Assembly (NCBI RefSeq): GCF_018873765.1
Contig: NC_057918.1
Location: forward strand, 10,920,862 to 10,984,861
DNA length: 64,000 nucleotides
Source of the DNA: Telopea speciosissima
Taxonomy: Eukaryota > Streptophyta > Magnoliopsida > Proteales > Proteaceae
Direction of reading: 5' to 3'
Below, one piece after another: positions 739 to 59,745 of the stretch (positions are counted from its first letter, which is position 1; each line of letters begins with the position of its first letter). Made by a program: the position numbers and the translations under genes. The notes under the pieces were generated by a model, which saw nothing but the letters and a program-made list of their open reading frames with translations, was not told where the DNA came from and searched no databases.

Positions 739-1340
739 GAAAACGAGAACTTAAAACGATGTAGATAATAATGAAAATCGAGAATAAATAATCACACACA
801 ACGCACCACACAAAGAATTTACATGGTTCTGCAAAATTGTCTACGTCGACGGTGAGATGAGATCTGTTCCACTATCAATGGAGAATAAGGTTATAGCCGC
901 TTATGAACAAGTGCTTAGCACACTTGATAGCTTGTGGTGCGTAAAAGCCCATTGCTACCGGGAGGTCTTGGGTTCAGGCCTCCTGATTCACACCTTCCCT
1001 TCCCCTTAGAATAGAATAGAGCATACTTGGAAAATCAGGTTTTTTAACTCAACTCGTCTTTCAGAAAAACCTGAATATACCAATTTCGTCATTTTTTACC
1101 ATGATCTAGTCTACATGACACTTGACCAGATTTTCTAAAATTTTGAATCAACCCTCGGGCAACCGACCCCAATCAAAACCCGATTTTCCAACTATGGAAT
1201 AGAGCAGAACCTATTAAAAAAAAAGAGGTTATAGCAGCTTGTTCTCACAAATTGCTTACAGGAAGAGGAAGAATCCTTGATACAAATATATAACGAAACC
1301 CTATATAAATAATCTATCAAAATTCCAGGAAACCCTATAT
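739..1340 (-). mobile_element. Old LTR fragment, interrupted by a SINE
   Basis: Read on the minus strand, this region matches the LTR-like block in the WRKY intron at about 4360-4600. Shared blocks are 'tgtaagcaat', 'ttattctccattgatagtg', 'atctcatctcac' and 'tgcatcgttttag' type sequence. It looks like a diverged solo LTR or LTR fragment, probably Copia-like. A SINE at 903-1227 splits it. It is an old, broken relic; exact ends and target duplication are not clear. Confidence 0.5.
903..1227 (+). mobile_element. tRNA-derived SINE inside the LTR relic
   Basis: It has a Pol III-like box B (gggttcaggcctcc near 968-982), a box A-like stretch (gatagcttgtggtgcg near 926), and an A-run near 1215-1224. 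It is flanked by near-identical 'aggttatagcngctt' sequences (about 888-902 and 1228-1242), which fits a target-site duplication of about 15 bp. Removing it restores the LTR-like sequence seen at 4390-4460. The same SINE family occurs inverted at about 19325-19455. Confidence 0.6.
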
Positions 1341-2102
1341 CCGTACCCCCAACACCCCGAGAGAGAGAGAGAGAAAGAGAGAGGGCAGATAAGAGGGAAT
1401 CGTTTTGTTTGGTTTAAAAACAAGCAATTGGATTGGGGAGGTGATGAAGTCAATGGCAACGACAACCCCCAATCCCTATTATTGAAACACCGGCTTTGAC
1501 CGGTATCGTTGGCATCATTAATAAGTATGAAAGCGGAATGACGGCACCAGATTCTAGTAGTAAGAGGTTCTCATCACCGGAATCAGGCAACTCAGGTACG
1601 TCGGCGGTAGCAATTTTGACAGGTAAACCGGTTAATTTCCATGTGACGTTGATCACCCTGTACGTACGAACCTTCAACGATCCTATCTACTAGTGTGGAC
1701 CGCCTAATGCGCCTTAAACCCCTCTCTCTCTCTCTTTCTTGCTTGGGTGAAGACAGAAAAGACCTCCATTTATGTATTTATAAAAATAGTTCTCAAGCGT
1801 TGAAGTTGAATTCTTCTTCTCCTCTTCTCTACTTTTTATTTCTATTTATTTGACAAAAAATGAATAAAATAAAAGAAAGGTTTGGTTTGCTTGTCAGAAT
1901 GAACTTGGTGGGCTAGCTGTTGACATATTTATGAGTGTGTGGATTTGTAATGGGCTAAAGATATACCACTTGGGTTTTTGAATTTGTTTTAAAAATTAAA
2001 AGTCAGAAACTAGAAAGAGAAGGCCAACCAACCCCTTATAAGTACACAGTATAACAGAGATCTCAAACACAACAAGCTTTAGAAGAGCAAACAAAGAGAT
2101 CC
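1341..2102 (+). promoter_or_regulatory. Upstream/promoter region of the WRKY gene
   Basis: A (GA)n tract lies at about 1359-1383 and a (CT)n tract at 1721-1740. A TATA-like 'ccttataagtac' at about 2034-2044 sits some 60 bp before the start codon. A full W-box TTGACC is at 1496-1501, with further TTGAC cores near 1614, 1849 and 1918. WRKY genes are often autoregulated through W-boxes, but use of these sites is inference. Short ORFs at 1450-1693 on both strands resemble no known protein. Confidence 0.4.
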
Positions 2103-5583
<3,481 letters not shown>

Positions 5584-12942: not shown

Positions 12943-13395
12943 TCACTCGTCATAATCTCTGTTATCCTTTCTAGATATGCCCAGCTTCCTTTCGAAAGGA
13001 GTATGGTTCCTGGGCTCTAATTCTGAAAGCATTAGACTGATTTCTTCACTCAGTTTAGTTTCTGAGTGACAAGAAGCAGCAGCAGCAAGCCGAGAAGCAA
13101 AAACAGGAGGTTGTTCTGGCAATTCTTGTATCAAGTTTCTACCTTCATCACGTCGCCCTGTTTGACCCAAAAGATCAATCATGGAACTAAAATGTATGGT
13201 AGTCAGGCTCAAACCATAATCCCTACTGATGGTCCTAAAGATTTTGCGTCCTCACCAACACGGCTATTGGGGCTGCATATAATTCTAGTTAAAGTAGCCA
13301 AATTTGGTTCCAAAACCACTTCTTTCATCATGTTGAATATTTTAAGTGCAGATTCTATTTCCCATTCCTCTCATTACCCAGAAATCATTGCATAT
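12943..13395 (-). pseudogene. PPR pseudogene, C-terminal half
   Basis: On the minus strand this encodes 'ALKIFNMMKEVVLEPN' and then 'SSMIDLLGQTGRRDEGRNLI', ending in an E-domain-like 'ISLMLSELEPRNHTPF'. This is the usual last PPR motifs plus E domain of a PLS-class pentatricopeptide protein, an organelle RNA-binding/editing factor. The frame is interrupted. The matching N-terminal half lies at 18875-19791, separated by a CACTA transposon. It converges with the 3' end of the CBS gene. Confidence 0.75.
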
Positions 13396-13409
13396 CACTA
13401 CAAGAAATA

Positions 13410-13885
13410 TGATTTTTGCCGACGGTAGAAATAGAGTTTCGTGGCCAAATATGATTTTCGATGACGGTTAGTTTATTACCGTCGCCCTATATAATTTGGG
13501 CGGCGGTGTACAATTTTCCGTCGTGAAAAATATAATAGAACGACGGTTTATATTTATTCGTCGGTAAAAATAAAATTAAGCGACGGTTTATAATTTTTTG
13601 TAGCAAAATATAATATTGGGCGACGGTTTACATTTAACCGTCGGCGAAAATGGAATTGGGGCGACGTTCACGGATTAACCGTCGTCGAAAATATAATGGG
13701 GGCAACGTTTTATAACTATTCATCGTTGAAATTGAATATGGGCGACGCTTTATACCTATCCATCGTTGAAAATACGTTACCAAAAAAAAAAAATCGTTGA
13801 AAATATATTTTGGACGACGTTTTTTAGTTATCCGTCGTGGAAAATAGAATTTAGACTACGGTTGGATTCTTACCGTCGTCGAGGA
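13410..13885. repeat. Left subterminal repeat array of the CACTA element
   Basis: About a dozen degenerate copies of a CGACGGTTTATA...CCGTCG unit occur in both orientations, spaced roughly 30-45 bp. In CACTA elements such subterminal motifs are the binding sites of the TnpA-type protein; that role here is inferred from the family. Confidence 0.85.
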
Positions 13886-14927
13886 GTAGCTTTTAACTTG
13901 GCAATTTTCCTCTTCCCGCTTTTCTTTCTCTTAAACCCAAACAACACCCATTATTCCCTCACAAAATCCCGCCATTCTCTCCTATCACTCTCCCCCCGAA
14001 CTTACGCTCTCTCACTACTCAATCTCTCAAACCCTAATATCTCTATAGCCATAATCAGAAGTTCAGAACCCTATTTTCCCCCTCTATTGAAAATCCCTGT
14101 GCTCTATTATTCACTCAATCTCTCTCAAATCTTTCTCAATCGCTCTAATCCTCTTTCAATCTCTATTCCATTGCTCCACCGCTCCACCAGGATAAGGAGA
14201 TAACGACGGAACCGGCGGGCTTGAAGTTGAATGCATCGGTACCAGGTATTATTTTTAATCCCATTTTCATCGCCCGTGTAAAAGAGGAGAGTAGAAGAGT
14301 AGAAGACTTTGAATAGCTAATGTCTTGTTATTCATCATCAGGGGAAGAAGGAGACGAGGAACCGACGCTGTGAGAGTTGGAGATTTCAGCCTCACTCTGC
14401 ATTTTGCGATTTCATCATCTGAGAGACGGAGTTCTGGGGAAATCTTTTGCGCTATATTTGTTCTTTGATCATCTGAGATACTTTGGTGTCTATGTGTCTC
14501 CTTTAATCTTTTTCTCATATTCCAGATTTTAATGCATTTTATAGATTTCATAAAACTCTGTTCACAGAAAATCAAATCCTATTTGAATGACAGTTATGCT
14601 TGCCAATTTTCATTACCCTGGAGTGCTTTGAGTGACAAGCTTTATCAAATTTTCTGTGCAGTTATGTAATATGCTGCTTTTTTCTTCTCTTTTATCCAAA
14701 AGAAATACAAGCCAGGCATAAGTTGTAGCTCTTATAGCGGCACATTCAACCCTATATTTGTGAGATGGGAAATCAAAAGTTCTATTCAAGTTGTTTGTTG
14801 TTTCAAGTTGTATGAAACTATTTTAATTCTAATGTCTTTCAACTATTGCTACTAGAATTTTCAGTGTTTAAATTGATTGGATATTCAACTTGCATTTACA
14901 CTTTGATTGTATCTGACTTGGCCATAG

Positions 14928-15854
14928 ATGGTGCATGGTGCTGCAAGTCTGCCACATGGTACTGGACAGGTGACCTTCAATTTTCCTTTGTTCATTAAAA
15001 GGAAATATATTGCTTATTAGATTGTCCGGATAGCTGTGTTTGCTAAAGGAGCAGCTGCAGATGAAGCTAGAGCTGCAAGGGTTGATATAGTTGGAGCAGA
15101 TGAGCTTATTGAGGGAATCAAAAATAGTAATTTGCATACTCCAATATATGAAATCTCTGATCTCTGATAAATAAACCACTGAGAACTGAGAGGGAGAACT
15201 TTCCCTTTCAATTTATATATTATGACTGTCATAATACCTTGCCTTAATTTTTTAACACTATTATTTACATCCTTACGATAAACGATATCATACCAGTAGG
15301 ATCTAGAATGAGAATTGAGACCATGTAGAGAGAAAACAAAATTTGCTGTTTTTTGGCTATCACCAAGTCACTGTTACTTATCATGTTATCTCACTATATA
15401 ATATTTTCTCTAATTTGAACTATATCTTAACTTATAAAACTTCTCAACTTGGATTCTTGCAGGTGGTGGAAACTCAATTTTGATAAGTGTATTGGGATGC
15501 CCATTTTCATGCCCCGTCTTGGAAAGGTATGGGATTTTTTATACTATTTATATTATGTATAACCAAATCAACTAGTACTTCTCTTCAAATAAAGGTTTTG
15601 ATCTTCCTGTTACAGATAGCAAGAATTCTTGGACCACGTGGTTTGATGCCAAACCCCAAAGTGAGTTATCCACTTGTTGATATTGAATGGATGTAAACAT
15701 ATGGATCGATCGCAATGCCCTTAATTATTTTCTTCCTGCTACATAGCTAGTTTCGGTGACCGGTGATATTCTTGGGGCGTGCAAGAAGGTGAGACGTGGT
15801 CGTATTGATTTTAAAATTGACAAAACTGCCATTGTGCATGTGGGCCTTGGGAAG
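14928..15854 (+). pseudogene. Captured fragment of organellar ribosomal protein L1 gene
   Basis: Exon-like pieces at 14928-14969, 15021-about 15126, 15463-15526, 15616-15660 and about 15747-15854 encode bacterial-type uL1 segments in the correct order: 'SLPHGTG', '[17 protein letters not shown]', '[13 protein letters not shown]', 'FMPRLGK', 'IARILGPRGLMPNPK' and 'DKTAIVHVGLGK'. Intervening sequence has plausible GT-AG borders, though the reading phase between the second and third pieces does not fit simple splicing. N- and C-terminal parts are missing. The 'FMPRLGK' and 'HVGLGK' segments suggest the mitochondrial rather than plastid protein, with moderate certainty. It lies inside the CACTA element, so the parent gene must be elsewhere. 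Confidence 0.82.
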
Positions 15855-16888
15855 GTATGATTACTGATATACCATTTTTAATTGCATAGTTAAATTCAAT
15901 TTTATTATCGCAGTGGGTGAATGTACTGTGTGATTAGTAAGCTTGTTAGCCTGCAGTGAGCCACTTCTTTGGTATGGTTGAATGTCAGTTCTGGCATGTC
16001 TTAATTCATTTAATGTGATTTATTATATAATAACATCAGCAAATATATAGAGGGAAAGAAAAATTAAAGTCTTACTATATTCTGTTGCCCAAACCTTGTT
16101 CTGTGTTGACCATATGTAGGACAATCACAGGATACCCAAATTTGATAGAAATTTGATCTAATAATAGGGTGCCACAATGGTAGTATCTCCAATAGTTGCA
16201 ACTAATGCAGCCTCGACCAAACTAGGTAGTCGATTAGGTAAAAATATTCTAAAGCTGCGCTGTTTTGCAGGGGAAGACTAGTAGCTTGAGGGTTGTAGGA
16301 TTAGTTTAGTGCTAGGGTTGGAATTAATGATGGGTGATGGGTAAGTTTGGATGGTAGAACTAGAGCTTTAGGTGAATAACAACAATGGTTTAGGGGACTT
16401 GAATAATTTCATGAACTGGGTTTTAGAAAATAAATAGGTGAAAAACACTCCAATCGGTGTCTAAGGTTGATGTGAGCAGGTTAGGGGTTTTGTTGCATAG
16501 TGGTTTGATGGAGACAACATGGGGAATGATGGTTGATTATGTTATTGGGAACCTAGATTAGGTTGCCATAATGGTAAATAGAAACTAGAAGTGCAAGATA
16601 AGCAGAAAAGAGATAATGCCTAGGAAATAGGAATCCACCTACAGAGAGACCGACTCCACAACAATTTATTGATACTAATATTCTTGCTTGGGTTACCAAC
16701 CTTTATATGGTTGCCTGCTGTGACTGAATAGTAAATAGTTGCTAAACTTCTTAACAGGCAGAGATGTTCATGACTCTTTCTGTACAAAGCAAACCATGCA
16801 TATTTGCAGCTGTCGCTTTGGTTTTTATTTTAATAGTTGGTTATTTTGTTGATTTCTTGTTCATCATATTTTTTCCTTTTGCCTGCAG

Positions 16889-17151
16889 AGAGTAGACTTT
16901 TGGATGTGCATCAAAGGCGTTTGTCAAGCTATGTTGGCACTTTAGCTTGGAGAGCACGTGAAGCAGATGGAGCAACTGATGCCAAACTACTTAAAGAGCT
17001 TTACCGCCGAAGTGATCCAGAAGGAGTGATAAGACTATTTGAAAGTCAACCTTCACTACATTCCAATCCCTCCGCACTTGCTGAATATGTTGAGGCATTA
17101 GTTAAAGTAGATAGGCTGGACGAAAGTGAATTACTCAAAACATGCAGAGAG
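16889..17151 (+). pseudogene. Captured exon of FtsH4-type mitochondrial AAA protease
   Basis: One exon with acceptor 'gcctgcag' and donor 'gagag/gtggg' encodes 'SSYVGTLAWRAREAD', then 'RSDPEGVIRLFESQPSLHSN' and 'LVKVDRLDESELLKT'. This is the N-terminal domain of plant FtsH4 (i-AAA protease of the inner mitochondrial membrane), matching the family wording 'NDPEAVIRMFESQPSLHANP' as I remember it. The end reads KTCREV where the family has a T-L-Q-R-G type end, which fits loss of one T in the captured copy. No AAA or protease domain follows. Confidence 0.85.
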
Positions 17152-18439
17152 GTGGGTTAGGAACTGTTCCATTCTTTTTGTTGTGAGGATTTTGATCCGC
17201 ACTCTCATGTCTTATTGATGATTGTTGATGGTTTAATATGCTGACCTTTCTATTAACAAAATAGTGACATATGTAGCTTGTAGATATTTTTATTTTAGTT
17301 TGTGGTTTGTTTATTACATGAGAGGATGGCTGCTTGAGTGCTTGTGTATCTATATATCGTAGATTGTTGGTGAGTGTTTGTAGAGGATATCTGATGCAGG
17401 AACACTTCCTTGGACTAGCCCAAACTCGATGGGGAGCCCAGATGGAGATGAATCGGGTCCAAATTTAGTTTTCATTTAGTAGGATATCAAAGTTTATTTA
17501 TTTATGTAGATCTAGATTTATCATTTGGATTTCTTGTCATCTTTTGTTTTACTTTAGGCAGTGGTAGAGTTTGATTTAGTGTTTGTTTCATTTTTAGTCT
17601 AGATATGAGTCTTTATTTTCCTATTTAAATACAAGGTTGTAACCAATGAAAGTTGCAGTTTTTTGAAAGATAGAATTTTGGTGTGGTGCATCTACTGGCT
17701 GTGTGGCTGCCTTCTCCTTCTTCTCTAGCCATCTTAGCTGTTCTATTCTTCTTCTTTCTTCAACCCTACTCTGTTGTAGTGGTACTAACAGTACCCTTAT
17801 TTTAATTTTGATCTTTCTCCTCCCTTACTTGTCCCTTCTCAGATCTTAGGAATATGAAGCCCTTTCATAGGTGGATATGGTTTGCCACTTCTTAGTGTCA
17901 AGATGATGACTTGTCAAGATGATCCCTTTTTGTTTATTTTAGTCCTTCAAAGGATTTTAACTTATTTGTAATTTGTTCATCTATGTTTCCTTCAGGTGCA
18001 ATGAAGTTAGAAGTTAGAAAGTTCCAACTATGAAATTCGAAAGGATGGAGATTGGAAGGAGGACTAGATTATGATGTTCTTGATCTGCAGTGTGGAGAGC
18101 AACGGTGATGAAGTATTTTATTGGAAGGAGTATTAGATTATTATGTTCCTTTGGCTAGAAACTTTTTCTCTTTGGGTTGTTTTTTGTTGGTGTTTTGGTT
18201 ATAACAACATTGGTGGAGAGTTGATTGAAAGTGAATTTTAAAGGAATCCTTTTGAGTTTGTGTTAATGGAAAGCAATGCATTAATGCAATGTTTATATGG
18301 ATTTTGTAGTTAATGGTTTTTCTTTTAGGGAATGAATATTATATATAGATGTAGATTACAGGTGAAAATTTCCCTTTCTGAATTACAAGCAATGAATACC
18401 CTATAATAAATAGGGGGGAAAAAAAAAAAGAGGCTTTTT

Positions 18440-18860
18440 GGCGACGGTAAACATATGACCGTCGCTAAAGATTCATTTTTACCGACGGTTATTTAAATGT
18501 CCGTCATATAAATTAGATTTTTCCTGACGGTATACCAAAGACTGTCACCTAATATTTACATTTATAGTGACGATTAAAACCGTCGTAAAACATAAATTTT
18601 TAGCGACGGAAAAGTATGTGTCGCCAAAAATATATTTTTAGCGACAGAAACACTAAACGTCGCCAAAAAGATATTTTTAGTGACGGAAACGTAAAGCGTC
18701 GCCAAAAATAATATTGCTAGACGGGAGCAGTTTTACCGTCGTTATTTTCCCCGACATCACTTTAGCCGACGGACTGGCGACGGTTAAAATTACCGTCGCC
18801 AATATTTTTAGCGACAGAAAACTATTTTTGACGACGGTTTATTACCGTCGCGAAAAATCA
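18440..18860. repeat. Right subterminal repeat array of the CACTA element
   Basis: Repeated 'gacggt', 'accgtcg' and 'agcgacgg' units in both orientations mirror the left array, next to the right terminus at 18874. One sub-cluster at about 18600-18700 repeats 'tttttagcgacggaaa' at roughly 45-bp spacing. Confidence 0.85.
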
Positions 18861-18874
18861 TATTTTTTGTAGTG

Positions 18875-19791
18875 TATGATGCTTGGATCATCAGTTCTTC
18901 CTACCTGATCAAAAATATTGAGCCCAGAAGAACAGCCACTTTTCATGTACATATGTATCACTTAGGGCAGTGCAGGTCATTTCATCAGATCACCGTTGAC
19001 ACCAGTCCTGATTATGTGTCCATGGATCTTTTTCCCCATGGGAGACAATGAAACCTGCCTACCTAATCGGTGTTCTGAAAGGTCTGAACAAACTAAGAGA
19101 ATGCAAACAAAAGTAAATGGACTAGATTCCATGCCCAGGATTCCCTCATTTTCTTAAACACATTGAGGACTATACGAGTCAGCCCACCTGCAGGAGACCT
19201 GACATCAGAAAATTGAATCTCGCAACATTCTTATAAGGAAACCCATTGAACATCCTCATAGCCAGGACAACGGATTTGCACGCTATGCTCCATGGTTTCA
19301 AAGGTAATCCACATCAAGTATAGTGAAACACTTCGTTTTTTACAAGGGGGGAGGGGGGATAGAGAGGGGGAAAGGTATCAGCCAGGAGACTCGAACTCAA
19401 GACCCCCTAGTGAGCATGGGTATGAAGCGCACCACGGTTCACCATAACGCTTCTCTCAAATACTCATTTTTGTGTAAAAAAAAAATCCAAATTTGATAGC
19501 GTTTAGGAAAGCCAAATCCTTTGAGACAATTCTTTGAACACCATGATAGCATCTACCGAGAGGTGAAGGTTCATGTACATGTCCCTGAGAGTGGCAGTGT
19601 TGAGCTTTCCATAATTCACAGGCTTTGAGGAGAGAGGGATATGTGAAATTGTCAGCAGAGTGCAATTGAGAGAACAACGAGAGTGATTCTCTGGAGATCA
19701 GGAAGCAAAAACCTTCTATACATTTATCTAGAGTATGAAGAAAATGGATTCTGTGAATTCCACTGCTTAAACGAATAGTAGTTCTTGGCAC
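18875..19791 (-). pseudogene. PPR pseudogene, N-terminal half
   Basis: Read on the minus strand from 19791, fragments in order are 'SLFSQLHSADNFTYPSLLKA', 'VARFNFLMSGLLQVG', 'GKKIHGHIIRTGVNGD' and 'HMYMKSGCSSGLNIFDQVG'. These are classic PLS-class PPR phrases. The frame is broken several times, and a SINE (about 19325-19455) lies inside it. The sequence runs directly up to the CACTA insertion site and resumes at 13395. It probably targeted an organelle when intact. Most of the PPR array is short or missing, so decay likely began before or soon after insertion. Confidence 0.72.
19325..19455 (-). mobile_element. tRNA-derived SINE in the PPR relic
   Basis: On the minus strand it reads 'gtggtgcgcttcataccc', then a box B-like 'gagttcgagtctcctgg' and a C/T-rich 3' part. 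The order and wording match the SINE at 903-1227 ('gtggtgcgtaaaagccc', 'gggttcaggcctcctga'). The ends are approximate. Confidence 0.55.
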
Positions 19792-28900: not shown

Positions 28901-31900
28901 AAAGTTGGGATGGCCCCAACCTGTATCAATGAGATGCAAGACATCCAGTGCAACTTTTACTTTCATTATGTAATGGATTTGATGAAATCTAACTTGAAAC
29001 TTCATGAGTTTCCAGTCTGCTCAAGGAAACCATTAGGAAATGCAAGTTGAATTTTATTTGGTAAATAATAAACAGCATGTGGAAGCATGTTAAGAAACCA
29101 GAGGGAGAAGGATGAACAGCAAAGCCAGTGACAGGTTGCCTCCTAAGCTTCCACTGCTTCAACTGCTCAATCCTTTCAGTCTTATAAAAAGAAACGAAAT
29201 AAAATAAACCAATTAGATGATGTAGCTCCAGACTCCAGCTCCCAAATCACATTCAAACCTTGAACATTATAATTGAACACTGCAATGCAGTTAAAAATAC
29301 GCCGACACCATTTACTAGGGATAAGGCTGAGTTGTTGTTGTTGTTGCAATGCAGTTAAAAATAGTAATAGGTATACCTGGAAGAGGCTCTACAACATTTC
29401 GAGTGTGACAAAGAGTATCTCCAACACGTGCCTCTTTGGTTGAACGCATACCACTAACAACATAACCCACTTGTCCAGTCAGAAGCACCCCAGTAGATGT
29501 GAGTTCGGGATGCATAATCCCGACATCCAGTACTTCATAAGCTTGTCCAGTTGCTGCAGATGAAATCTTATCCCCCTTACGCAAAGCACCATCAACAACT
29601 GCAACATGGCAGATTACTCCTTTGTACTCATCATAATAAGAATCCAGTAAAAGCATCCTTAGAGGTAAACTACTCTTCCCAGGAGGTGGAGGTATCCGCT
29701 CTATGACAGCAGGAAGAACATACTCCAGACCTTGACCAGTTTTTGCAGAAGTCAAAAGAGCAGCTTCAGGGTCAAGATCAAACATGGATTTCAGCTGGGC
29801 CTTAATCCGATCAGGGTCAGCGGTTGGCTGGTCAATTTTATTTATAACGGGAATTATGGTCAGGTTAGACTCGAAAGCAAGATAGAAGTTAGCAACCGTC
29901 TGAGCCTGAACACCTTGAGCAGCATCAACAACCAAAAGAGCACCCTGGCAAGCTGCAAGAGATCTTGATACTTCATAGCTAAAATCCACATGACCAGGTG
30001 TGTCAATTAGGTTTAGTAAGAAATATGGTGAATCTTGTGCATCAGTATTCAGAGGACATTGAAAATTATGCTTATAGAACATAGTTGCAGTCTGAGCTTT
30101 AACTGTGATTCCCCGTTCCCTCTCTACCTACAAGTGTTAGAAGATAATCCAAGAGTCATTATATAAGCAAGTAAATGAGATGAGATAGAGAAAATAGGAT
30201 ATTAAGCAAGATGATCATTTAATGTATTAAGAGAGATCACATATGGAAATTATAACTAACTCATAATCTCTGCCACATAAACTAAGTGCAGTACAGATTA
30301 AAATGTTGAGACGGGTAGTGGCAAGCCAAGGAAGTATAGAAATAGAAATGAATTTGTTCGAGAAAACTTAAGAAGTGCACCAATAGACGAGGATGAAGGA
30401 AGGTTAATTAAGATGATCCGGGCATGCAGAACAAAGACCACAGATAAAAGGTTAAACCGAAGGTAGTAGAAGGACAAGGGTCAGGCTGAAGATGACCTGG
30501 GTTTAAGTGAGTGCTTATGAGTTAACAGCTCCTAGTCCTAAAACCTTTGTTACAGACTTACAGTGGATTAGTGAAACAATGAGATGAGTTGTTTTAATTA
30601 AGACTATGAGAAAGACTAAGGTTTGGATGGTTGTTAATTACAGGGTATGGCCGCAATGCAGAAAGGAATGGAGAGGAGACTTTAGTTGGAATATGTGAAA
30701 GGAAACTTTGTAGGTTGTGGATGATGAAACAAATCAAAGTGAGCAAGAAGAAAAGGAAAAACTGTACAACAATAGGGCGGATGGCCTTTACAGCTATTAT
30801 TTATCACAACAAATTAATAGATTAGCTGCCTCTTAATGCTTCAACTTCACTTGGTTTATTAAAGACAGAACCCCCAGAACCATCACACACACACACACAC
30901 ACAAAAAAAAGCCCAAGACCGACAGACAGGCTCCTGGTTTTCTGTGGAATAGGTTAAGACGTGCAGCTGATACTGGCTGGTGACCTTTCATGCAATGCCT
31001 TATGCATGAAATTGAGCACAAGAATGATCATATAACTTTTGCATTGCAGGTGGAAAGCATATCTGGAATTAATATATATTGGACTATTTGGAGTTTTTTG
31101 GGTACTTCCTCAAGACACATGGATGTAGTCTACTTCTTGCTTGATGCTTCTGATCTTTTTTCCACCCCAAGGTCAAATTTTGTGGAGAATGGTGCTTTTG
31201 GCCAATTAAAAGAGAGGGTGGGAGGATAGAGACAGAGCTTTTGGCCATTTTACAGCTTATAAAGCCTCTTTTTGGAGCTATCTGGTCATCTGTTGCAATT
31301 GATGATCGAAGAACAAGTTCTGCTGGCTGCTTCTATTTTCTCTAGTTTATATCTAGGTAACAAGGATACCGGTATACAAAATGGCACCTGCTGGGAAAAT
31401 TATATAGGGCTCCATACAGAAAACAGAAGTGTTGGTGCTCAGCATGGATATTGATATGGGTTATCTGACAAAGCAGAATTTATAAAAAGAAAAATGAAGT
31501 GTCCTTGTTGCACAGTTTTGTATCAGGACAAATACATATCATACACATCACAAAAGGCTTGTACTTCTGCATCCTTGCGCTACTTAAAGTCACATCAAAG
31601 AACTCCTTTGCCTTTTCTATTTTTTTCTGAAAGAAATATTTATTGGAGAGAGATGAATCAATGAGTTCCATTTTTTACAAATTAAAATTTTAAGAGTTAA
31701 GTGTTAATGTATTAACACTTAAGGCTGCAAAAATTAACAATTACAATAACAATAATAATGATGATGCCTAAATGAAAATATAGAAAACACTTTACAAGGA
31801 TTACTACAGTTCTCCTTTGATATTTCATTTCGTCATTCCAACAAATGGACACTCACAAATAAATTAGCTGTCGTACAGAGCTATAGAAACACGATTCTCA

Positions 31901-39000: not shown

Positions 39001-42000
39001 ATCCTTCCCCCACTTTTTGTGAGAGTCTGTTCCCTTGTTCGAACCCATGATCATCAGATTGCAATAGAGCAAACTTCCCATTGCGCCGAGGCTCGAAACG
39101 GTAATGACTGTTGCCTACGGATATAGGATAATGACTGTTGTTACCAAATGTATTACCATCTATGTTCAAAAGAGACATGTGGGTTGCCTACCGGTCCTAC
39201 TGCTTAACCTACCCAGTTTTCAAAAATACATGCATACTACTTGATGATTCCGTAGGTGTCCATCTTCTAGATACCATTGTCATTGGTCTCTAGAAAGTAG
39301 AAACCACTGCCACTGGCTTTTTCAGGATACCATTGGATACCATCTTTACTCTCTATTTCCTCCCCCCCCCCCCCCCCCTTGTCGTCATCAAAAAGGCAAA
39401 TAAGGAGGGTAGAGCTTGTGGTACCAATTTGGGAACACTGATACGCATGCCCCAGAGGCAAGAAATCAAATGAGATACGCCGTGAAAGTTGGACTATGAT
39501 GCTTAGCTTAGGCCTTGTTCCTAGTATGACCTCAAATAGAGCTGATTGGGGAACAAAGATCCATGCGGTCAACTCCATTTAGTTGGACTATGATGCTGTG
39601 ATGTTGTTTTTGTATTACATTGTTTAAACTCCATTTCGAGGTCTAGAACATAATGTTGGGCGGTTAAGAAGTGGTACGTAGCTAAGAAGGGTCGATGCCC
39701 TTGAGTTTGTGTTGATGTTGTATGCCCCCATAGTTGTCACGGCGGTTAGGTGAATGACCTCAAATAGAGCTGATTGAGGAACAAAGATCCATGCGGTCAA
39801 CTCCATTTAGTTGGACTATGATGCTGTGATGTTGTTTTTGTATTACACTGTTTAAACTCCATTTCAAGGCCTAGAACATAATGTTGGGCAGTTAAGAAGT
39901 GGTACGTAGCTAAGAAGGGTCGATGCCCTTGAGTTTGTGTTGATGTTGTATGCCCCCATAGTTGTCATGGTGGTTAGGTGACCCAAGGCGGTGGAGAGGG
40001 TAAAAATCCAAGGCGACACCAAGTAGGCGACCAAGGCGCCCAAGTCGACCAAAGCACCTGGACGCCCAGGCGACGCCTTGACAACTATGATGCCCCCCTC
40101 CCTTTACTTCTTTATTATTATTCTACTGTCTCTTCTTAGATCCATGTAGCCTACCCCATTAAGTTGGGATAAGGCTATGATGATGATGTTGTTGTAGTGA
40201 AAGCTCAAAAGGATTAAACAAGTCAATACAAGGATTTCAGCATTAATACCCATGATTGGTAAAAAGAAATCATTGTTGGTAGGTATTTCCTAAATATTAT
40301 TCTGGAAGAGATGATCAATGATTCAGTTATTGTCTTCAGTTTAGAGCTTCTCTCCTTGCGCAAAGATAATGGAGATTCTAATCACCCAAGGGTTTAGGTC
40401 CGCAATCCCAAAAAAGTCCAGAATCGCAGGAAAGTAAGGAACCCAATTCAGGAGAAAACTAGTTAATGCAGTAAAAGTATATCATATATGGTCGAGACCA
40501 AAAAAACTAGTTGAATGATCTGTTTGTGGAGAACAGTTCAGCATTAAACAGCTATCCAACGGTGTGATTTTAAAATACTGGAGAATCCTACCAGCATAAG
40601 GAAACTCAGACCCAGGCCAAAACAAAGAATTCGATAAAGGGTTTAAGGATTTAAATCTCAGGTCAAATTATGTATTGAAATTAATGATTAGCACACACTC
40701 AAACCAGAATCAGTATTCAGAAATCAGAAGCAGAGAAATCAGTCCATGAGAACGAGATTTGGAAGTAGTTGACAGCAATTAGGACTCTTGGAATCGACTG
40801 GAAATTTAGGGATTTGAAAACAGAAAACAGCCACTAAATAGTTGAACAATAAACTGAGATCATCCAAGGCAGGAACCTAACTAACAGAAAAAGAATCTTA
40901 AAGAGGAGTAAAACATGTGCAGGATAAGAAAGATCAGAAAAGAAGGGAAGGAAGATGAATCAGGAATCAACACCTGATCCTCAGATTGGAATCACCACCA
41001 GGCGTCCTACTAAATGACCTCAGCAGGAGCTCTGAATCAACACAGAACCCAAGGTAAAGCCAAACTGTGTCATTCATATCAAATCGTTGGGGGCTAATAG
41101 CCTTTACATGTTTAAGTAAAACTGAACGGAAAAGTGAAATAAAATAGATTTTAAACTGTCTTAAACTCCCCAATCATTGCCTGCTGTTGGAGAGTCTCAA
41201 ACAAGTGAATAATAAAAGAACTAACAACCTAAACAGATAAGCAAACCTCCTCCCTTACACCTCCCTGTAGCATCCACTTGGTTAACAAAGCTGAGTCTCC
41301 CAGCCACTGGATTTAAAACAGTAATTAAAGCTTCAGAATCAAAAAAATAAAATTCCAGATTTCGTCATTTAGGTGATTTTATGTATCAACAGATCAGAAG
41401 CTCTGATCTGCTCAATACCCTGGTTGAAGATAAGTCTAGGGAAGTACTTTATTGCCCCAAAGTATCTCCCTCTATGATGAATATCGATTCTGCCCAAATA
41501 TGCCCCAAAACAGAGCATCCGCTGGGTAATTCTTATAGAGTTTCTGATATATGGCAGTCACTTACGGATCTGCTGTGAATATCAGTTGATAACTTGAGGA
41601 TTAATATCACAATACAGCAGTGCCAATCGATGGAAGAGGTAAACAGAAACTTACTTGCATTAAAATAGAGCAATAACAATGGGATATGACCTTGATCTCT
41701 CACCAAAGGCCTGGATCAGATTCTCTCCAATCAAACAGAGTTCCTCACTCCCTCACAGTCTCTCACAGCTCACTGATTCTCTCAGCAGTAAAGGCATAAA
41801 AGCCAAATTCTTTAAACTTCATAAAATCGTGGGCAAGGCCCTGACAAGCTATGTGAAAAACTCCAAAACAATGTAGGAAACTGTCCACTCACAATAGCAA
41901 CTCAACTAGGGAATCAAAAACTAAAAGGTAACCTCAAAGGAAACCCCCCCACGCAAGGTAAAGGAGTTCTCCAAGATAAGACTAAAAAATATAAAACAAC

Positions 42001-58866: not shown

Positions 58867-59745
58867 TGTTGATACATCCAAGATTTATCGAACCAGTCAG
58901 CGGCTGCCACGTGTCATAAAGCGACCCGCTTCAGAACCAAGGAGAACCAACTGGGGGTCCCACCCGGGCGTGGCCTCACCCAGGTGCGGGCCTCACCCAG
59001 GCACCGGCCTCACCCAGACACGGCCTCACCAAGGTGGCGGCCTGCACCCAGGCGTCGGCCTCACCCAAGCGTCGGCCTCACCCAGGCACGACCTCACCCA
59101 GGAGTCGGCCTCACCCAGGCGCAGGCCTCACCCAGGCGTTGTCTCACCCAGGCGCGGCCTCACCTAGGCGTGGCCTCACCCCCAGGCGTGGCCTCTCACC
59201 TAGGCGCAGCCTCACCCAGGCGCGGCATCGTGGACGCAGAAGTGATGTACACTACACGGACACCGAGGCCGCTCATCTATGACCCAATCGTGTCACTATA
59301 GACTTATGCCACCACCAGGACTCAAGGCCACCGCTTAGAGGTCACGTTACCCAGACGGATTCAAGCACCAATGACGTTATCATCACACGCAAGTATCTAT
59401 CCGCCAAGGATCTTGATACCACCAGGACACTCCTTCCTCCGGGGAGATGACTAATCAGGATTGAGTCATACTACCCAGGGCCTCTATCCACTCAACGGCA
59501 CACTCGCCATCAAACTGGGACTCTCCACACTGTCATACACTACTATAAAAGGAAAGGTACACCACCCTTAAAACGGACATCTGAACTCATATTGAATAAT
59601 CACTATTCATCTGTTTGCTCAGGAGATCTAATTTTGGCATCGGAGAGCCCTAGGCCGGAACCACACCGGTTCTCTCTGTTGACCCCTTGGTCCACTTGCA
59701 GGTGACGGCACTCGCAGGACCGTTCGACGATTTTTTGACGCAACA
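58867..59745 (+). mobile_element. Solo LTR, Ty3/Gypsy-like
   Basis: It starts TGTTG and ends CAACA. It contains a TATA-like 'ctataaaagg' (about 59544) and a 3' part with 'ttttggcatcggagagccc', typical of plant Gypsy LTRs. No internal region or second LTR lies nearby, so it is probably a solo LTR left by recombination. No convincing 5-bp duplication is visible at these borders. Its first third holds a minisatellite. Confidence 0.7.
58960..59225 (+). repeat. GCCTCACCCAGGCG minisatellite inside the LTR
   Basis: About 16 tandem units of roughly 14-16 bp (consensus cctcacccaggcgcgg) run from about 58970 to 59225, with small length changes. All reading frames across it are open and give Ser-Pro-Arg-rich chance ORFs. 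Confidence 0.85.

Follow-up and report, generated by a model that had tools for sequence, protein, structure and literature searches.

How pieces of two host genes came to lie in the same orientation inside a single transposable element is the question raised by positions 13396–18874 of the 64,000-nucleotide Telopea speciosissima sequence analyzed here (the window; C3:10920862-10984861 of the 823-Mb genome, 1,287 contigs). Positions are numbered within the window unless another locus is named. The interval is almost certainly a non-autonomous, multi-copy Pack-CACTA element, and its payload consists of a multi-exon part of a ribosomal L1 locus and one exon of an FtsH4-type gene.

Structure and genomic copies of the element

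The element is complete at 5,479 bp, begins with CACTACAAGAAATATGATTTTT, ends with AAAAATCATATTTTTTGTAGTG, and is flanked by matching copies of a TAT target-site duplication (13393–13395 and 18875–18877). Its terminal inverted repeats are 22 bp long and agree at 21 of 22 positions (5′ CACTACAAGAAATATGATTTTT against inverted 3′ CACTACAAAAAATATGATTTTT). Adjacent to these are subterminal arrays in which short motifs recur in direct and inverted orientation, a trait of the CACTA superfamily. GACGG/CCGTC motifs occur 11 times in the first 492 bp (13396–13887) and 15 times in the last 433 bp (18442–18874), where about 0.3 each is expected from base-shuffled sequence, while the 4.5-kb middle contains 3 against an expectation of 3.2. 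Between the arrays, all on the forward strand, lie a promoter/5′UTR-like stretch termed module A (13888–14663), a 43-bp joining stretch (14664–14706), the L1 segment B (14707–16746), an 8-bp junction (16747–16754), the FtsH4 segment C (16755–17873), and a native CACTA 3′ region (17874–18441). A sequence-only reading had described a complete CACTA element without transposase, holding a multi-exon L1 piece and an FtsH4 exon, both in forward orientation with introns. Ends, length, duplication, and both gene fragments are all where that reading placed them. The captured stretches are longer than it noted, extending over the whole of segments B and C with introns included. The missing transposase is likewise borne out, as none of the 121 genomic matches to PF02992 (Transposase_21) falls within any of the 11 copies described below. 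Only one open reading frame (ORF) of at least 130 residues overlaps the element; it overlaps module A and has no Pfam match.

Ten further full-payload copies (L009–L018) are present in the same genome, making 11 in all; copy and match counts from genome searches are lower bounds throughout. The same 11 loci were recovered by five queries: the L1 part (at least 12 places), the FtsH4 part (at least 14 places), module A (11 matches at 96–100% identity and 15 weaker ones), the 5′ end (96–98% in the ten other copies), and the native 3′ region. The last of these gave 11 matches at 96–100% and at least 29 other loci with 40 of 64 candidates scored, 28 of them at 81–94% and one at 74%. All 11 copies share the identical 22-bp 5′ end CACTACAAGAAATATGATTTTT, and ten share the 3′ end TGTAGTG, which is TGTAATG in L015. 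Each is bordered by a 3-bp duplication (TAT, TAC, TAA, ATT, TAT, GTA, TGA, TTC, ATA, TGA, and, for L013, GGA). Shared ends and 3-bp flanks at 11 loci are beyond chance, and no insertion with differing true termini was found among these copies. That 11 full copies occupy different loci, and that each has a duplication of its own, indicates that the element moves as a unit with its payload. Copy length is 5,428–5,501 bp in ten cases. The remaining copy, L013 (C3:27359000-27367200), contains two nested inserts of about 1.3 and 0.7 kb and lies some 128 kb from the FtsH4 donor on the same chromosome.

Pairwise Kimura two-parameter (K2P) distances between copies are 1.16–2.97%, with a mean of 2.03% (L013 inserts and 3′ part excluded). 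The copies are 3.8–5.7% distant from the donor loci; since they differ less among themselves than from the donors, their spread came after capture. In a tree of the copies, nine cluster with 100% support, and L014 and L015 are placed outside that cluster. The 5′ end search revealed no close relative free of payload: below the 11 copies at 96–100%, the long matches were only 69–77% identical (40 of 90 candidates scored). The payload was therefore probably already aboard when the family spread.

Single copies contain tight clusters of private substitutions and indels, in the window copy at 15755–15786, in L013, L016, and L017 within L1 exons, and in L011 within the FtsH4 exon. Several such clusters are inside captured exons and others outside. 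They may be genuine changes, or long-read consensus errors left uncorrected in repeated sequence.

Donor loci and native CACTA parts

Segment B (element positions 1312–3351) matches a locus at C2:66.38 Mb (L019) at 94–96%. Relative to this donor, approximately 43 bp are absent at 14984, and 1.52 kb containing two further L1 exons are absent at 15937–15942, where there is a 6-bp overlap. The captured part comprises five exons (14928–14969, 15021–15126, 15463–15526, 15616–15660, and 15747–15854, the last holding the private-change cluster of the window copy). In the donor these five exons are stop-free with AG/GT at every site, and the peptide from them and the two further exons covers positions 30–195 of 198 of the Ribosomal_L1 profile (E = 4.7e-48). 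A protein search with these exons matched only C2, the 11 copies, and, weakly, a plastid-type gene on C10. PDB chain 4v61_BD, which we take to be spinach chloroplast L1, scores 270 bits with the C10 gene and 156 bits with the C2 peptide. Because the C10 gene fits this chain far better, the C2 donor is probably of mitochondrial type by elimination. No second mitochondrial-type L1 gene was found: C10 is plastid-type, the L1 peptide had no match at C9:59.92 or C2:24.83 Mb, and the other PF00687 places gave none in the L1-exon protein search. Two results weigh against regarding the C2 locus as an intact gene. None of the 17 matches from a PF00687 family search (five of them weak and in the copies) falls at C2:66.38, where the exons are short, and the stretch read at this locus yielded no upstream exons. 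The C2 locus is therefore a putative working gene.

Segment C (element positions 3360–4478) consists of one exon and flanking intron, and is 92.6% identical to a locus at C3:27.224 Mb (L030) and 93.7% identical to a place on C5 considered below. A related locus on C7 shares with C3 the order of a flanking gene end, presumably PPR, and at both loci a stop-free M41 peptidase domain lies 6–7 kb downstream (about 7 kb at C3). Given the shared flanking order and the downstream M41 domains, C3 and C7 represent two FtsH-type genes. The C7 gene was rejected as donor, as it matches segment C only in and near the exon (87% over 422 bp and 82% over 72 bp), at a K2P distance of about 30% versus 3.8% for the C3 gene. 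The captured exon (16889–17151) has no Pfam match, and its only PDB match, a weak one (E = 0.14), is to the mitochondrial i-AAA protease YME1. The name FtsH4 is therefore presumptive, with the M41 domain and the weak YME1 match in its favor.

Both parent genes proposed from the sequence have thus been located, the L1 donor at C2:66.38 Mb and the FtsH4-type donor at C3:27.22 Mb, and the possibility that the fragments are sole, decayed copies is ruled out by the existence of both loci. The suggestion that both parents probably encode mitochondrial proteins also holds, for L1 by elimination and for FtsH4 through the weak match to YME1.

The sequences at 13888–14663 and 17874–18441 also occur in or beside other CACTA elements. 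Module A matches C6:66.358 Mb at 78–92% in three pieces, and a decayed CACTA 5′ array precedes the match there by 1.4 kb; because it is found beside another CACTA 5′ array, it was probably carried by CACTA elements and not newly captured from a gene. It also matches three further loci (L046–L048) at 77–87%. The start of all three (CACTACAAGAAA; CACTACAAGAAAAGTGC; CACTACAAGAAAAGTGCTC) is of another sequence, hinting at different CACTA families that share internal modules. The native 3′ region was considered as a further gene capture and rejected, given its presence at the 29 or more loci besides the 11 copies. Several of these have a PF02992 match between the region and a 5′ end, or nearby. One relative of 27 kb (C1:70.20-70.23 Mb) possesses both ends, has ATT on each side, and includes an open frame of 491 codons that matches PF02992. 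The window's 5′ repeat is identical over 22 bp to the 3′ terminal repeat of this relative. In all likelihood, the element would be moved in trans by transposase from larger relatives whose termini are related to its own.

Assembly of the element

The place on C5 (L060/L061, C5:37802300-37822300) is a large CACTA element containing a longer FtsH4 piece that encloses the window's segment C. It is laid out as a CACTACAAGAAA 5′ end, an FtsH4 piece collinear with L030 positions 126–2641 apart from a 2.5-kb interruption, and the native 3′ region; in the window, the FtsH4 segment and the native 3′ region overlap by 5 bp where they meet. Because the C5 piece is longer and contains the window segment, the fragment may have been handed from one CACTA element to another. 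We somewhat favor an origin in which the FtsH4 piece arrived inside an older CACTA element of the C5 type and not straight from the gene. The sequence-only reading had proposed two independent captures into one element. There are indeed two donor loci on two chromosomes, but the independence of the events is doubtful, given that a C5 CACTA element holds an enclosing FtsH4 piece.

The best relatives of the different parts are distributed in a pattern that invites a fuller, more tentative model. For the 5′ third the closest relative is on C6, for the 3′ part it is in elements of the C5 and C1 type, and the L1 piece lies between. Two neighboring CACTA insertions might have been mobilized as one, enclosing L1 between the 5′ end with module A on one side and FtsH4 with the 3′ end on the other. 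This layout is what such joint mobilization predicts, as proposed for Pack-TYPE elements in Arabidopsis, maize, and rice (PMC8903248). It is a possible reading of the element, not a proof, and we consider it less probable than the transfer of the FtsH4 piece itself.

Several observations weigh against this history. The 3′ end of the C5 element was searched for and not found, and the element has no internal PF02992 match. The window copies, the C5 element, and the C3 gene are mutually about equidistant at 3.8% each, and polarized sites split 3:5:3, so that neither measure settles whether the piece was handed down. The 5′ repeat of the C1 relative differs from that of the window at 3 of 22 bases. 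The 5′ ends of the C1 and C5 elements are 78.6% identical to each other, and that of the window is 70.8% and 73.5% identical to C1 and C5, in a comparison whose shuffle control failed. Since the C1 and C5 5′ ends also differ strongly, the asymmetry between 5′ and 3′ parts is weak evidence for fusion. Finally, fusion would lead one to expect an order of ages that is absent here, as divergence from the donor is no lower for the L1 piece (4.9–5.7%) than for the FtsH4 piece (3.8%).

The strongest rival explanation is that both fragments were taken directly from the two genes, separately and in succession, and that the C5 element acquired the same FtsH4 locus independently. The equal distances and the 3:5:3 site pattern are consistent with direct capture, and the proximity of L013 to the FtsH4 donor on C3 is also in its favor. 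Against it, two captures of the same 1.1-kb stretch within one CACTA family would be coincidental, and the window segment is nested within the C5 segment. We regard direct capture as a serious minority explanation, about as probable as the fusion layout, and retain the passage of the FtsH4 piece through a C5-type element as the preferred account.

Coding state, transcription, and related elements

The captured frames are broken in every copy. L1 exon 3 lacks one base relative to the donor in all 11, a single base is missing close to the end of the FtsH4 exon in all 11, and the spliced L1 frame reaches a stop after at most 71 codons in each. A protein function is therefore not expected, and the captured frames are unlikely to yield a protein product. 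That exon shuffling has formed a new chimeric gene coding for protein, as the common orientation of several L1 exons and an FtsH4 exon might suggest, is scarcely credible in the face of these deletions and the short L1 frame. Selection on the coding parts was likewise rejected, as the exons diverge more than the remaining sequence and their frames are disrupted throughout. Between copies, four of the five L1 exons differ by 3.8% versus 1.4% for the rest of the L1 part, and the FtsH4 exon by 2.1% versus 1.5% for other sequence, the excess deriving partly from the tight clusters in single copies.

Splice sites have for the most part been retained. The expected dinucleotides are present at 109 of 110 L1 sites across the copies and missing only from the acceptor of exon 4 in L015, and the FtsH4 exon keeps its AG acceptor and GT donor in all 11. 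L1 exon 4 is identical to the gene over 45 nt in nine of the 11 copies. With these sites largely intact, the element may be transcribed into a spliced, chimeric RNA that does not code for protein. It is tempting to extend this to regulation, whereby chimeric RNA or small RNAs from a transcribed Pack-CACTA element would act in trans on the L1 and FtsH4 genes. The intact splice sites and the exon 4 identity are consistent with such a role, as is the soybean element Tgm-Express1, which yields spliced chimeric RNAs (PMC1947982). Against it, the captured exons bear no sign of constraint in the divergences given above, and intact splice sites in young copies say little about their use; we consider trans regulation unlikely. 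Slightly less probable still is the specific case in which spliced chimeric RNA or small RNAs from the 11-copy family would lower the output of what appears to be the only mitochondrial-type L1 gene, and of one of the two FtsH4-type genes. If true, this would tie the activity of transposons to translation and protein quality control in mitochondria. For the plant, the element is most likely a mobile passenger and nothing further.

Pack-CACTA elements of Arabidopsis, maize, and rice are reportedly the subject of a study by Catoni from 2019. Such elements have CACTACAA termini, duplications, and gene DNA from several loci (PMC8903248, PMC13317346). The window element resembles them in its CACTACAA-type termini, its duplications, and DNA from several loci, and differs from them in belonging to another plant lineage and in having both donors and a possible carrier of one fragment identified. 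Multi-gene Pack-CACTA elements have been described before (PMC8903248, PMC1947982). Tgm-Express1 is a 5,722-bp CACTA element in an intron of F3H with five unrelated host gene fragments including exons and introns, and cDNA evidence of chimeric splicing (PMC1947982). It is thus a CACTA element of near-equal size with several intron-containing host gene fragments. Unlike Tgm-Express1, with its five fragments and cDNA evidence, the window element has two gene donors and occurs in 11 copies. It shows each of the Pack-CACTA traits assessed, and is a further example of a type known from soybean, maize, and Arabidopsis. A literature search returned no papers joining CACTA capture with FtsH or with Proteaceae.

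With 11 copies bearing 3-bp duplications, both donors, and a larger CACTA element carrying a longer fragment, models of stepwise capture and of fusion for Pack-TYPE elements become testable by following breakpoints across related genomes. There is also a warning for annotation: 11 L1-like places and, with the C5 element added to the 11 copies, 12 FtsH4-like ones are passengers of transposons and not genes.

Elsewhere in the window, a 255-residue ORF on the reverse strand (29318–30082) matches domain 2 of elongation factor Tu and the C-terminal part of its GTP-binding domain (profile positions 69–188), and is perhaps part of an elongation factor gene. A G+C-rich minisatellite with unit CACCCAGGCGCCGGCCT and multiples thereof occupies 58961–59226, and a 228-bp unit is tandemly duplicated at 39526–39981 with 96% matches.

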